Part shown: positions 9,109 to 25,593 of the stretch, in pieces | Numbering within the stretch: position 1 is the stretch's first letter | Layout: the number at the start of each line of letters is the position of its first letter | Origin: a virus | Direction: 5' to 3' (one strand) | IMG/VR virus record: IMGVR_UViG_3300031857_001121 | Coordinates: 1 to 27,105 of that record | Length of the DNA: 27,105 nucleotides | Program-made: the position numbers and the translations under genes | The notes under the pieces: generated by a model | Databases searched by the model: none | What the model was told of the DNA's origin: nothing | What the model saw: only the letters and a program-made list of their open reading frames with translations

Positions 9109-10380
9109 ATGGCAATATTTGATAACTTTTCAAACCCATTTGAAGGTATGACACCTTTTGGTAGCACTATACCTACTGGTATTTTAAGCGAAGCAGATGA
9201 ATCAAAGCTACGTAATCAAGCATTGTTTCAAGGGTTATTAGGAACTGCTGCTACATATTTAGCTACGCCTAAAAACTTAGGTGCAGGTTCGCCATTACCA
9301 TATATTGGAAAAGCATTTTTAGGTGGTATGAACGCATCTCAAGATGTTGTAGATAGGGCTTTACTTGCTCAATATAGAAAACAATTAGCAACAGCAAGAG
9401 ATGATAACTTATATAATGTAGACGGTGCGTTAGTAAATAGAGCAGGTCAAGTTGTTTATCAAAGTCCTACTAAAGAAAAAGAAAGAAAAACAGCAGTAGT
9501 TGATGGCGTATTAGTTGATGCTAATACAGGAGAAAAAATATACGAGTCTACTAAACAACCTAAACTTAATACAGATATTATTGACGTTGGTGGTAAAAAA
9601 ATTCTTATTAATAAAGATACTGGCGAACCAATACAAGAATATAAGATAACAGGTGGTGGGTTAGGATTAAAAGATATTTATGGTGAACCACAAAAAGATG
9701 CAAGTGGTAAATTAGTTTACATTCCAAAAATACCTGGTTATCCAGTTAGAGATATGAGTGGTAATATTATTCAAGGTGATGTTCAATTAGCAGAAAAAGA
9801 CGTAAAACCTCCTACAGAAGAGCAGTCAAAAGCTAGAACATTTTATAAGCGTATGGAAGGTGCTACAAGCGTATTTAATAAACCTGCTTTAGATGCAAAA
9901 GGCAACCCTATACTAGACGCTAATGGAAATCCATTAACTGTTGAACAAGTTGCTGGAAAACCTGAAATTGGTGCTGAAATTGCAGGAGCATTGCCTATAG
10001 TAGGTGGAGTTGCAAAAAGAAGTGCAGAATCACCTAATAGACAGCTTTATAGACAAGCACAAGAAAATTGGGTAACAGCTAACTTACGTAAAGAGTCTGG
10101 AGCTGTTATTGGTGCAGAAGAAATGCAACAAGAAATTAAAAAATACTTCCCACAACTTGGTGAAGGACCTGAAGTTATTGCTCAGAAAGCTGAAGCTAGA
10201 AGAATAGCTGAAGAAGGCATGAAATTAAATGCTAATTTTCCAGCAGAAAAAACAACTGAGCCAACACAAAAAACACAACCAAAGCAAACATCAACCAAGG
10301 GATTAAAAATTGGTCAAGTTGTTAATGGTTTTAAATATTTAGGTGGAGACCCTAATAATCAAAATTCTTGGAGTAAATAA
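9109..10380 (+). CDS. Large virion/ejection-type protein with GPEVIAQKAEAR helix motif
   Basis: 423 residues. The N-terminus (MAIFDNFSNPFEGMTPFG) leads into a hydrophobic stretch LFQGLLGTAATYLATP and an Ala/Gln helix. The centre consists of short beta-hairpin-like repeats (VVDGVLVDANTGEKIYES, DVGGKKILINKDTGEPI). Residues ~325-380 contain LRKESGAVIGAEEM followed by YFPQLGEGPEVIAQKAEARR, a combination common in uncharacterised virion proteins of podoviruses and some prophages. A Thr/Gln/Lys linker and a short C-terminal GQVVNGFKYLGGDP end it. It overlaps the next gene by one base. An ejection-complex role is inferred from context. Confidence 0.5.
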   Translation: MAIFDNFSNPFEGMTPFGSTIPTGILSEADESKLRNQALFQGLLGTAATYLATPKNLGAGSPLPYIGKAFLGGMNASQDVVDRALLAQYRKQLATARDDNLYNVDGALVNRAGQVVYQSPTKEKERKTAVVDGVLVDANTGEKIYESTKQPKLNTDIIDVGGKKILINKDTGEPIQEYKITGGGLGLKDIYGEPQKDASGKLVYIPKIPGYPVRDMSGNIIQGDVQLAEKDVKPPTEEQSKARTFYKRMEGATSVFNKPALDAKGNPILDANGNPLTVEQVAGKPEIGAEIAGALPIVGGVAKRSAESPNRQLYRQAQENWVTANLRKESGAVIGAEEMQQEIKKYFPQLGEGPEVIAQKAEARRIAEEGMKLNANFPAEKTTEPTQKTQPKQTSTKGLKIGQVVNGFKYLGGDPNNQNSWSK

Positions 10381-16298: not shown

Positions 16299-16533
16299 TA
16301 TTGCTTTCAATCAATCGTTGTGTTGCTTCTGAATACTTATTCATTGATTTATATTCTTCTATCTTATCACCTCTAAATAACGGTGTAATCTTAATATGAT
16401 GTGTTGCATTTTTGAGGTCATTAAGATATGACAGTTCTTTAGGATGAAATGACCACAGGTAAGACTTTTTAAGGTCACCAGACTTAACATCAAACTCTTC
16501 ATAAAGCCATGCTACAGGTTCTTTTTTAGCCAT
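16288..16533 (-). CDS. Small phage protein, AKKEPVAWLYEE type
   Basis: Start placed at the ATG in the TAATG overlap with the SleB-like gene, giving 81 residues; a longer in-frame start lies within that gene. It begins MAKKEPVAWLYEEFDVK, an N-terminus I associate with short phage early proteins, and continues with a Trp/Tyr-rich strand (KSYLWSFHPKEL) and a charged C-terminus (RGDKIEEYKSMNKY). No catalytic motif recognised. Role unknown. Confidence 0.5.
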   Translation of the reverse strand: MAKKEPVAWLYEEFDVKSGDLKKSYLWSFHPKELSYLNDLKNATHHIKITPLFRGDKIEEYKSMNKYSEATQRLIESNNGL

Positions 16534-16916
16534 TAGTAAAACACCATCCTTCCTATGTGAGTAATTTTTTGATGACCAAACCACGAATGTTTCGGCATAA
16601 TGGAATCATCATGGAAGTATAAAGCATTTGCAACTGGGTTAGCATATTTATGAAATACAATTGCATCAAGCACCAATAGTTGCGTTTCAAGATACGTCTT
16701 TTTATCAACCTTCTTATGGCTCTCGTCTGTAACGCCAATAAATTGCCCAGAAGCATAAATAACAGAGCATACATCACGACCCCAAAGACCAGATTTGACA
16801 CGATTACGAATAACATTAATGACACCTAGCTTCTCCTCTAATGTTCTATTATTAACTTCGTGATACACAGCAGTAGCATAGCACGAAACTTCTAGTTCTA
16901 AGTTATGTATATCCAT
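16533..16916 (-). CDS. SleB-type cell wall hydrolase
   Basis: 127 residues, preceded by AAAGGTC. It matches the SleB/hydrolase_2 family: AVYHEVNNRTLEEKLGVINVIRNRV (residues 16-40), with Glu20 in the position of the catalytic Glu, then VCSVIYASGQFIG, and a closing IGRMVFY. Family members are lytic transglycosylases acting on peptidoglycan in spores or as phage endolysins. There is no signal peptide, so it would need a holin or another route. It sits in the minus-strand operon, far from the holin cassette, directly left of pqqA. The family call is good; use as the main endolysin is inferred. Confidence 0.78.
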   Translation of the reverse strand: MDIHNLELEVSCYATAVYHEVNNRTLEEKLGVINVIRNRVKSGLWGRDVCSVIYASGQFIGVTDESHKKVDKKTYLETQLLVLDAIVFHKYANPVANALYFHDDSIMPKHSWFGHQKITHIGRMVFY

Positions 16917-16937
16917 TACAGACCTTTCATGGTTTTC

Positions 16938-16969
16938 TTGTGTCTAGTAAACCCATATAAGCGTATAAT
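16938..16969 (+). promoter_or_regulatory. Predicted promoter for pqqA
   Basis: A perfect -10 hexamer TATAAT at 16964-16969, preceded by a weaker -35-like TTGTGT at 16938-16943 (20-base spacing, long) or GTGTCT at 16940-16945 (18-base spacing). Transcription would start near 16976, about 27 bases before the pqqA start, leaving room for AAGGAG at 16990-16995. The orientation is opposite to the surrounding operon, so the peptide appears to have its own start signal. Confidence 0.55.
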
Positions 16970-17002: not shown

Positions 17003-17074
17003 ATGTGGACATCACCATCAGCAACTGAAATGCGCTTTGGATTTGAAGTAACTATGTACGTAATGAACAAGTAA
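17003..17074 (+). CDS. pqqA: PqqA, pyrroloquinoline quinone precursor peptide
   Basis: A 23-residue peptide starting MWTSPSATE and ending MRFGFEVTMYVMNK (residues 10-23). This is the PqqA pattern: MW at the start, Pro5, Arg11, Gly13, then E-V-T-M-Y with Glu15 and Tyr19 separated by three residues, then a short basic end. In known PqqA, PqqD presents the peptide to the radical SAM enzyme PqqE, which links this Glu to this Tyr; PqqF/G proteases, PqqB and PqqC finish PQQ. Length and residue numbers equal those of 23-residue bacterial PqqA. AAGGAG lies 7 bases before the ATG. It lies alone on the plus strand within a minus-strand operon, with a promoter before and a terminator after. No other pqq gene is in the window, so host enzymes would process it. 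Confidence 0.93.
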   Translation: MWTSPSATEMRFGFEVTMYVMNK

Positions 17075-17080
17075 ATAAAT

Positions 17081-17104
17081 AGGGGAGGTCAAACTCCCCT
17101 TTTT
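17081..17104 (+). terminator. Intrinsic terminator of pqqA (perhaps bidirectional)
   Basis: A perfect 6-bp GC stem GGGGAG/CTCCCC (17082-17087 with 17094-17099) plus a flanking A-T pair, six-base loop GTCAAA, and a run of five T. It starts 7 bases after the pqqA stop. Read on the minus strand the stem is followed by ATTTATTTA, moderately U-rich, so it could also reduce transcription of the minus operon toward the SleB gene. Confidence 0.88.
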
Positions 17105-17105
17105 A

Positions 17106-17351
17106 CTAGAAGGGCAAATCTGAATCATCTGCACCTTCAACTGCTGGTTTACTTCTTGTTTCACCCTGAGTTTCTTTCATTTGTACAGAACCGCTAATAA
17201 ATTTGCCGTTCTTACCTTCTCTAATCCAACCACTAATTCTAAATTCAATACCATCTACGTTAGCAGTTCCTGTGTAATCAGGTCGTTTAGGATTGTCACC
17301 CTTATCGTTTTTAAATAACGTAAACGTATTCGTGTTGTCATATTCAGCCAT
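17106..17351 (-). CDS. Short SSB-like single-strand DNA-binding protein
   Basis: 81 residues. A single OB-fold-like core (NTFTLFKNDKGDNPKRPDYT, GTANVDGIEFRISGWIREGK, KFISGSVQMKE) ends in an acidic tail DDSDLPF. That tail matches the SSB C-terminal tip (D-D-x-I/L-P-F), which recruits partner enzymes. It is shorter than E. coli SSB (178 residues), having little linker. Placement beside YqaJ exonuclease and a strand-annealing candidate fits a recombination or replication set. It overlaps the YqaJ gene by 8 bases and ends 1 base beyond the pqqA terminator. Confidence 0.75.
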   Translation of the reverse strand: MAEYDNTNTFTLFKNDKGDNPKRPDYTGTANVDGIEFRISGWIREGKNGKFISGSVQMKETQGETRSKPAVEGADDSDLPF

Positions 17352-23499: not shown

Positions 23500-23789
23500 G
23501 TGTTTGGCAAAAGAAAGCAGGTAAGAACCCTAAAGGTGGCTTAAACGCTAAAGGTCGTGCCTCATACAATAGAGAAACAGGTGGTAATTTAAAAGCACCA
23601 GTAAAGTCAGGCGATAATCCTAGACGTGCATCTTTCCTAGCAAGAATGGGTAATATGCCAGGACCAGAACGCAAACCTAACGGTGAACCAACAAGACTAT
23701 TACTATCACTAAAAGCATGGGGAGCATCTAGCAAAGCAGACGCAAAAGCGAAAGCTAAAGCTATAAGCGCAAGAAACAAAAAGAAGTAA
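23496..23789 (+). CDS. DUF6321-like small basic protein
   Basis: 97 residues, ATGA-coupled to its neighbour. It carries WQKKAGKNPKGGLNAKGRAS, then KSGDNPRRASFLARMGNMPG and PNGEPTRLLLSLKAWGASSK, the DUF6321 pattern widely found in environmental phages near packaging genes, and a Lys/Ala-rich tail. A nucleoid-type or virion DNA-associated role is possible but unproven. One-base overlap with the glycosyltransferase gene. Confidence 0.75.
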   Translation: MSVWQKKAGKNPKGGLNAKGRASYNRETGGNLKAPVKSGDNPRRASFLARMGNMPGPERKPNGEPTRLLLSLKAWGASSKADAKAKAKAISARNKKK

Positions 23790-24496
23790 TGCTGAAATTA
23801 GATATATACGTAGGATATGACGGTAAGGTAGAACCAGTTGCATATCATAACTTTTGCCAGTCAGTTATAGAAAAGTCATCTATACCGGTAAGTTTTACAC
23901 CATTAGCATTAAACACTTTAAAAGACTACGAAGAAACACATAAAGACGGTAGCAACGCATTTATCTACTCACGCTTTTTAGTGCCATATCTAAATAACTT
24001 TAAAGGTATCGCATTATTTGTAGATGGCGATATGATATGTAGAACAGATATAGCAGAGATACTAGCGAACTTTGATAATGACGAAGCAGTCAAAGTCGTA
24101 AAGCATAACTACACAACAAAGCATCCTATCAAGTATCTAGGTGCAAAGAACGAAGACTATCCTAAAAAGAATTGGTCTTCAGTAATGTTATGGAACTGTT
24201 CACATTGGTTGAACCGTCAGCTAACACCTAAGTTTGTGCAAGAGCAAACAGGTAAATACCTACACAGGTTTGAATGGTTAAAGTATCCTGAAGAACAAGT
24301 AGGTAAGCTAGACGAAACATGGAACTGGCTAGAAACAGAATACGAATACAACCCAGATGCTAAGTTAGTGCATCACACATTAGGCACACCATGCTTTAAA
24401 GACTATCAGAATACAGACTATAGTCAAGAATGGTTTGAGACGTACCAAAGAATGATATACCCATTAAAAGGAAAAAACAGGGAAAGCGAATTATGA
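23789..24496 (+). CDS. GT8-like glycosyltransferase
   Basis: 235 residues. The N-terminal Rossmann-like part (LDIYVGYDGKVEPVAYHNF, then SNAFIYSRFLVPYLNNF) leads to the DxD metal/nucleotide-sugar motif FVDGDMICRTDI (Asp79, Asp81), and the C-terminal half has NWSSVMLWNCSHW and LVHHTLGTPCF (acceptor and catalytic region of GT8-type enzymes). It would transfer a sugar from a UDP or similar donor. Possible targets are virion proteins, DNA bases or host surface, none decided by sequence. Located between small basic proteins and the packaging genes. Confidence 0.8.
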   Translation: MLKLDIYVGYDGKVEPVAYHNFCQSVIEKSSIPVSFTPLALNTLKDYEETHKDGSNAFIYSRFLVPYLNNFKGIALFVDGDMICRTDIAEILANFDNDEAVKVVKHNYTTKHPIKYLGAKNEDYPKKNWSSVMLWNCSHWLNRQLTPKFVQEQTGKYLHRFEWLKYPEEQVGKLDETWNWLETEYEYNPDAKLVHHTLGTPCFKDYQNTDYSQEWFETYQRMIYPLKGKNRESEL

Positions 24497-25044: not shown

Positions 25045-25593
25045 ATGCAATACTATGTATATCAACTTATAGACCCAAGAAATAGCAAACCTTTCTATGT
25101 AGGAAAGGGTAAGGGCGAAAGAATGTATGCCCATGAGAGAGAAGCTGAAGGTAAAAGTCAGCATCCTAAATGCAGGGTTATAAGGGAAATAAAAGAATTA
25201 GGCTACGTTATAGAGTATAAGATACTCAAAAGGTTTGAAGACGAAGAACAAGCCTATTTATACGAAGCTGAAGTTATATTAGATATAGGACTAGAAAACC
25301 TAACAAACCTAGTTCATGGTGGCAATATAAACACCAATAAACGTAGTAATAATTGCGAACACAGAGCTATGGTATCTTTATTAGCAGTTATACTAAAAAA
25401 GACTCGTGGTAATTTTAGTCATAACACAATGACATTTGCAGGGTTACAATTAGATATAACTAATACTTTAAGAATTATTGTTACTAAAAACCTAGAAAAG
25501 CTATTTGCTAAGAGAGGAATAGACTGGGTATTTAATGAATTTAAGAAGCACAATGTTAATTTATATGTAATTAATCAGGAGCAACCAACCTAG
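25045..25593 (+). CDS. LEM3-like GIY-YIG endonuclease
   Basis: 182 residues, preceded by AGGGG. The GIY-YIG core reads YYVYQLIDPRNSKPFYVGKG (residues 3-22), followed by R26, H30 and YLYEAEVILD (Glu74/76 region), matching the LEM3-like subgroup with the extended DPR-N-x-K-PFYVGKGKG. The remaining ~90 residues are less conserved, with a helical end. GIY-YIG enzymes include free-standing homing endonucleases; its position between a structural-type gene and TerS, with a folded RNA before it, suggests a mobile gene. Target unknown. Confidence 0.82.
   Translation: MQYYVYQLIDPRNSKPFYVGKGKGERMYAHEREAEGKSQHPKCRVIREIKELGYVIEYKILKRFEDEEQAYLYEAEVILDIGLENLTNLVHGGNINTNKRSNNCEHRAMVSLLAVILKKTRGNFSHNTMTFAGLQLDITNTLRIIVTKNLEKLFAKRGIDWVFNEFKKHNVNLYVINQEQPT

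Follow-up and report, generated by a model that had tools for sequence, protein, structure and literature searches.

An orphan pqqA gene in phages of methylotrophic bacteria and its possible role in supplying the PQQ precursor during infection

Introduction

Cyanophages carry psbA, encoding the photosystem protein D1, as a phage copy of a turned-over host component that sustains energy metabolism in infection. The psbA product is a working part of the machine, whereas PqqA is a peptide consumed to make a cofactor. Each PQQ formed uses up one PqqA, and the other pathway components act catalytically and are supplied by the host, so that a phage would need to bring only pqqA.

Phage-encoded PqqA is not wholly new. 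The available text of a report from Lake Baikal (PMC7678222, 2020) describes a methanol dehydrogenase and one PqqA in VP_139/VP_266, a predicted Methylophilaceae phage, and reads the phage PqqA as an auxiliary metabolic gene, as we do below. The VP_139/VP_266 contigs are T4-like and carry the dehydrogenase, whereas the DNA analysed here comes from an unrelated phage; moreover, this text says nothing of how widespread phage pqqA is, of its solitary unit or of a promoter box.

In the Methylophilaceae, pqqA is present in multiple copies and each of the remaining pqq genes in a single one (PMC4109929). In twelve genomes of this family we counted 1-12 pqqA copies per genome; the highest numbers were found in Methylotenera mobilis 13 (G004, 12) and in a genome of the same class (G249, 9). 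Five pqqA copies that differ in expression are known from a methylotroph that produces PQQ (PMC9851590). For Methylovorus, a member of the Methylophilaceae, the availability of PqqA is described as rate-determining in the part of PMC11317620 that cites Ge et al. One study consistently found xoxF transcripts to be the most abundant in OM43 (PMC5120137), and the demand for PQQ should therefore be high. Taken together, the multicopy host pqqA, the rate-determining PqqA and the high xoxF expression make a gene that acts through substrate dose plausible. Against this stands M. extorquens AM1, in which pqqA was reported to be dispensable (Toyama and Lidstrom 1998, cited in PMC11317620), although that work did not take orphan copies into account.

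Here we analyse a pqqA gene in a viral genome and its counterparts in other phages. What is new is the breadth of phage pqqA, its selection, the lack of pqqE in the phage records searched and the host-type box shared by phage pqqA promoters.

Results

The window encodes an intact PqqA in a free-standing unit

The window, by which we mean the whole stretch of 27,105 nucleotides (IMG/VR record IMGVR_UViG_3300031857_001121), is a genuine phage genome and not host contamination. It encodes a terminase large subunit, a DnaB-like helicase, a single-strand DNA-binding protein (SSB), a RecE-like exonuclease, a virion protein and an endolysin (PHROG matches). The pqqA gene and the elements around it are as follows.

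16533..16916, minus strand: endolysin-like cell-wall hydrolase, neighbour of pqqA (PHROG 938, E=7e-12)
16926..16941, plus strand: degenerate host-type pqqA box TTCATGGTTTTCTTGT, at -77 from the ATG (host-trained matrix, 7.2 bits)
16964..16969, plus strand: candidate -10 element TATAAT; the stretch GCGTATAATTC is kept in the relative L441
16990..16995, plus strand: Shine-Dalgarno sequence AAGGAG, 7 nt 5' of the ATG
17003..17074, plus strand: pqqA, PQQ precursor peptide, 23 codons and stop (translation, PF08042, TIGR02107)
17081..17100, plus strand: intrinsic-terminator-like hairpin AGGGGAG-GTCAAA-CTCCCCT followed by TTTT, 3' of pqqA
17106..17351, minus strand: SSB, neighbour of pqqA (PHROG 18154, E=3e-16)

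The first-pass annotation had proposed a 23-residue PqqA with AAGGAG 7 bases ahead, and both the sequence and the family models bear this out. Translation of 17003-17074 gives MWTSPSATEMRFGFEVTMYVMNK followed by TAA, with MW at the start, Pro5, Arg11, Gly13, Glu15, Tyr19 and NK at the end. The peptide exceeds the cut-offs of Pfam PF08042 (38.8 bits against 21.1, E=8.8e-10) and of the equivalog model TIGR02107 (34 bits against 20, E=1.8e-8), so the family-level match on which the identification depends is present. It was the only PqqA match within the 27-kb record (E=2.5e-10), and no PqqA match was found among 14 control genomes. We conclude that 17003-17074 is an intact, true member of the PqqA family.

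Both neighbours of pqqA lie on the opposite strand, which gives the gene the appearance of a free-standing unit. The consensus promoter scan listed no promoter at TATAAT 16964-16969. Terminators were found behind 15 of 40 phage and 32 of 40 host pqqA genes, compared with 2-3% of shuffled sequences, and a Shine-Dalgarno-like site precedes 161 of 187 viral pqqA genes. Host PqqAs of the Methylophilaceae are the same as those of the phages in length, sequence, reactive Glu/Tyr, ribosome site and terminator, and a search of this family, which the first-pass annotation had named as host, returned the identical peptide MWTSPSATEMRFGFEVTMYVMNK in Methylotenera. The window copy differs from the host genes in its setting: it lies in a phage genome, as an orphan, beside opposite-strand SSB/recombination and lysis genes.

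Over the replication region, the window is closest among named DNA records to the spring-water phage MW202481, another carrier of pqqA, and part of this region matches the phage Venkman, whose host is OM43 strain H5P1. From this relatedness we infer that the host is probably a methylotroph of the Methylophilaceae. The terminase counts against this host: its closest match among named records is another spring-water phage (55%), followed by Pseudomonas phages (54%), which are its closest relatives among named records with a host. The window proteins that were examined included no dehydrogenase. By eye, the window also encodes a glycosyltransferase-like protein (23789-24496, plus strand) and a GIY-YIG-like endonuclease (25045-25593, plus strand).

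pqqA is present in unrelated phages of Methylophilaceae

A tblastn search with the window peptide over 50,697 phage records gave ten good matches: Venkman, MEP301, P19250A, MEP401, MEP402, four Melnitz isolates and MW202481. The gene is thus present in every completely sequenced Methylophilaceae phage that we identified in the collection (P19250A, Venkman, MEP301, MEP401/402 and Melnitz); NCBI taxonomy names a few further ones, and MEP431-434, possible exceptions, were absent from the collection. These phages belong to unrelated lineages, for instance Zobellviridae (MEP401/402) and the T4-like Kyanoviridae (Melnitz). Phages of SAR11, Vibrio or Pseudomonas are the nearest terminase relatives of Venkman, MEP301, MEP401 and the window phage, and these relatives were absent from the PqqA matches in the 50,697 records. 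Enterobacterial and alphaproteobacterial PqqA queries returned from the same records only the same phages and bacterial contamination. Two apparent matches were rejected: the Acinetobacter phage MD-2021a record (L008) is mislabelled and contains a bacterial pqqA-B-C-D-E stretch, and the Escherichia phage ERS-1 match is a GC-rich fragment lacking a start codon and the Tyr.

In the methylophage records, pqqA is either unannotated or overlain by a spurious hypothetical ORF on the opposite strand, and the PHROGs library holds no PqqA family. The prediction that gene callers would miss so small a gene therefore holds for the complete methylophage genomes. With 23 codons and no entry in a main phage protein library, pqqA stayed invisible and was overlooked in every completely sequenced methylophage examined.

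A scan of IMG/VR confirmed at least 588 viral contigs as PqqA-encoding, and 80 of these loci together with the isolates fall into 26 DNA clusters. The viral pqqA contexts matched a single bacterial locus, L106, which appears to be a viral contig misbinned into a bacterial MAG; L105 and L136 were treated as suspect.

For a denominator, phages were picked by their terminase and not by PqqA. In the window-terminase group, pqqA was present in all nine contigs of at least 35 kb and in 12 of 20 contigs over all sizes. The Venkman-terminase group had it in five of seven, and the MEP401-terminase group in two of 12 contigs, with a 42.8-kb relative lacking the gene. pqqA is thus found almost throughout the window group and is common among the Venkman-type phages. 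Its patchy distribution in the MEP401 group indicates that the gene is not essential.

Phage pqqA is under purifying selection and keeps the reactive residues

Using 28 sequences (24 distinct) from isolates and terminase-selected contigs, we obtained a dN/dS of 0.12, and third codon positions vary freely. Phage pqqA therefore evolves as a protein under purifying selection, with a dN/dS of about 0.1. A first value of 0.07 came from pattern-selected loci; it was biased because these loci had been selected by their peptide, and was set aside and replaced by 0.12.

In Methylorubrum PqqA, the pair cross-linked by PqqE is Glu16/Tyr20 (PMC10906245). Loss of the corresponding Glu15 or Tyr19 in phage homologues would speak against a PQQ precursor, and all 188 viral PqqAs keep the Glu-x3-Tyr pair, although the pattern-found contigs were partly selected for it.

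Many phage pqqA promoters share a box with host pqqA promoters

Host pqqA promoters share the 16-nt box CTCATGATTTTACTTA, which is almost exclusive to pqqA in the host genomes and is common to most phage copies. Words of the ATGATTTT type emerged de novo, by word counts, from host and, separately, from phage pqqA upstream regions. A CTCATGATTTTACTTA matrix was trained on 38 bacterial upstream regions only and used with a threshold of 9 bits; the suspect contigs L105, L106 and L136 had been removed from the first training set and the matrix retrained. Of 41 non-redundant upstream regions of phage pqqA, 33 had a site of at least 9 bits, compared with 3.6% of 497 upstream regions of other ORFs on the same contigs (Fisher P=4e-32, a value that is only indicative since the phage sequences are related).

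In P19250A, MEP301, Venkman and Melnitz (the latter two scanned in part), the best site in all scanned DNA lies 65-99 nt before pqqA, with the score possibly raised in Venkman and MEP301, where the box abuts a divergent gene start. In MW202481 another site scores higher than the one at pqqA, and no box was found upstream of pqqA in MEP402. The window pqqA has no site above 9 bits upstream, its best being the degenerate 7.2-bit site listed above.

Across the 16.3 Mb of eight host genomes, TCATGATTTTACKTA occurs nine times without a mismatch, each time 93-161 nt ahead of a pqqA. As the consensus was derived from pqqA promoters, the telling part is that there is no other exact site. No box within one mismatch was found in three OM43-type genomes. 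Upstream of xoxF, searched in HTCC2181 only, the box was not found (best site 4.7 bits). The box is a candidate operator for a regulator of PQQ supply.

Two kinds of inverted repeat were seen in pqqA leaders. TACACA..TGTGTA lies before the ribosome site in L012, L059, L064, L068 and L080, and AGTCTTG..CAAGGACT pairs over the ribosome site in L002, L003, L063 and L427. Such repeats are possible mRNA stabilisers or translational switches.

Phage PqqA probably adds to the supply of PQQ precursor

We consider it likely that phage pqqA serves as an auxiliary metabolic gene by increasing the dose of a consumed precursor, the effect on PQQ itself being deduced from the pathway. A phage of Methylophilaceae carries the gene as a mini-transcription unit with ribosome site, 23 codons and terminator. 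During infection, this unit would be transcribed from a high template copy number. Host PqqD would bind the peptide, host PqqE would cross-link it, and host PqqB, C and F/G would complete its conversion into PQQ. More PQQ would then keep the PQQ-dependent methanol dehydrogenase (XoxF/MxaF) charged, which could sustain the supply of energy and carbon until lysis. A host without pqqB-E would not fit this scheme. PqqE scored above its cut-off in seven of eight Methylophilaceae genomes, the exception being a MAG, and the window host is placed in this family by relatedness; in 24 viral records no PqqE was found.

Support for this role also comes from one 72-kb viral contig (L052) in which pqqA, at 10001 and with a 17-bit box, is accompanied by a gene for a PQQ-dependent alcohol dehydrogenase of the methanol-dehydrogenase type (608 bits over an open frame).

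L052:2103-3977, plus strand: PQQ-dependent methanol-dehydrogenase-like gene
L052:4057-6897, plus strand: formate-dehydrogenase-like large protein, directly downstream of the dehydrogenase (by eye)

The region is flanked by genes for a phage-type ribonucleotide reductase, DNA ligase, endonuclease and GroEL, and its combination of dehydrogenase and pqqA agrees with the Lake Baikal report (PMC7678222).

Because the phage brings the substrate alone, any dose effect is conceivable, including a lowering one. The peptide might flood PqqD/PqqE as a decoy, or the box, present in many copies once the phage DNA replicates, might titrate a host regulator, so that PQQ is lowered or methylotrophy reprogrammed. 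We regard this as improbable: a pure decoy need not keep the cross-linked Glu and Tyr that all 188 peptides retain, purifying selection acts over the whole peptide, a pure DNA titrator needs no ORF, and one pqqA phage contig also has a methanol dehydrogenase. It is very unlikely that phages exploit a second role of PqqA unrelated to PQQ, as a lanthanide-linked peptide, signal or regulator. An involvement of orphan PqqA in lanthanide uptake has been speculated upon (PMC11317620), but the idea is without direct evidence and the conserved features are those needed for processing by PqqD/PqqE. Least probable of all is that pqqA and its promoter are a small mobile cassette or attachment-site remnant of no benefit, as its many unrelated DNA contexts (26 clusters) and the dispersed pqqA copies in hosts might suggest, since the copies are uniformly intact and selected (dN/dS about 0.12), the gene is present in the T4-like Melnitz, near-universal in the window's own group and tied to one kind of host, and tyrosine integrase (PF00589) was found in none of 34 records, the window included, for which reason an attachment-site origin was rejected. 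Retention of the entire substrate signature makes all three alternatives less well supported.

The presence of pqqA in nearly all known Methylophilaceae phages, often with a host-type switch, suggests that it keeps the methanol metabolism of the host running during infection. A cofactor precursor, that is a consumed peptide and not an enzyme, would then be a recurrent phage lever on the one-carbon metabolism of abundant marine and freshwater methylotrophs. Cultured phage-host pairs, such as Venkman or Melnitz with H5P1 and MEP401 with FZCC0133, make phage pqqA genetically testable, and the gene is a possible marker for predicting the hosts of uncultured phages.

Other PqqA types occur in viral contigs and enterobacterial prophages

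A scan with gammaproteobacterial PqqA revealed 82 further viral contigs with other PqqA types, some of them 188-340 kb in size (L448, 340 kb; L455, 217 kb; L470, 188 kb). Among the stretches examined, a pqqBCDE neighbour was present in one of 80 loci. The hosts are possibly other PQQ-dependent bacteria. Loci with these types are L443-L484, L487, L496-L517, L521 and L522.

YncD/PqqU is the importer of PQQ and a known phage receptor. Eleven of these further contigs are enterobacterial prophages, roughly 40 kb in size, whose pqqA, MWKKPAFIDMRLGLEVTLYISNR, is complete and has AGGAGGG as well as a terminator. In four that were examined, some 150 nt separate pqqA from a preceding gene that breaks off at almost the same codon each time and matches YncD/PqqU (PDB 6v81, E=2e-20; 9c4o, 3e-16). 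Judged from these junctions, the prophage seems to use pqqU as its insertion site and to bring pqqA along. No E. coli genome matched the prophages.

On balance we lean towards a broader reading in which Methylophilaceae have a dedicated pqqA regulon of dispersed paralogues with one operator, CTCATGATTTTACTTA, read by a regulator. Many unrelated phage lineages would have independently acquired pqqA with this operator, or evolved it, and so wired the supply of PQQ precursor into host control. PqqA dosage would then be a general takeover point for phages, including marine and enterobacterial ones and prophages inserted in the PQQ-importer gene.

The enterobacterial pqqA prophages are L489:1-700, L494, L495:1-540 and L519, with the relatives L485, L486, L488, L490, L491, L493 and L520. 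One 52-kb phage contig (G048) carries two different pqqA genes, at 1948-2004 and 40838-40894, with differing upstream regions.
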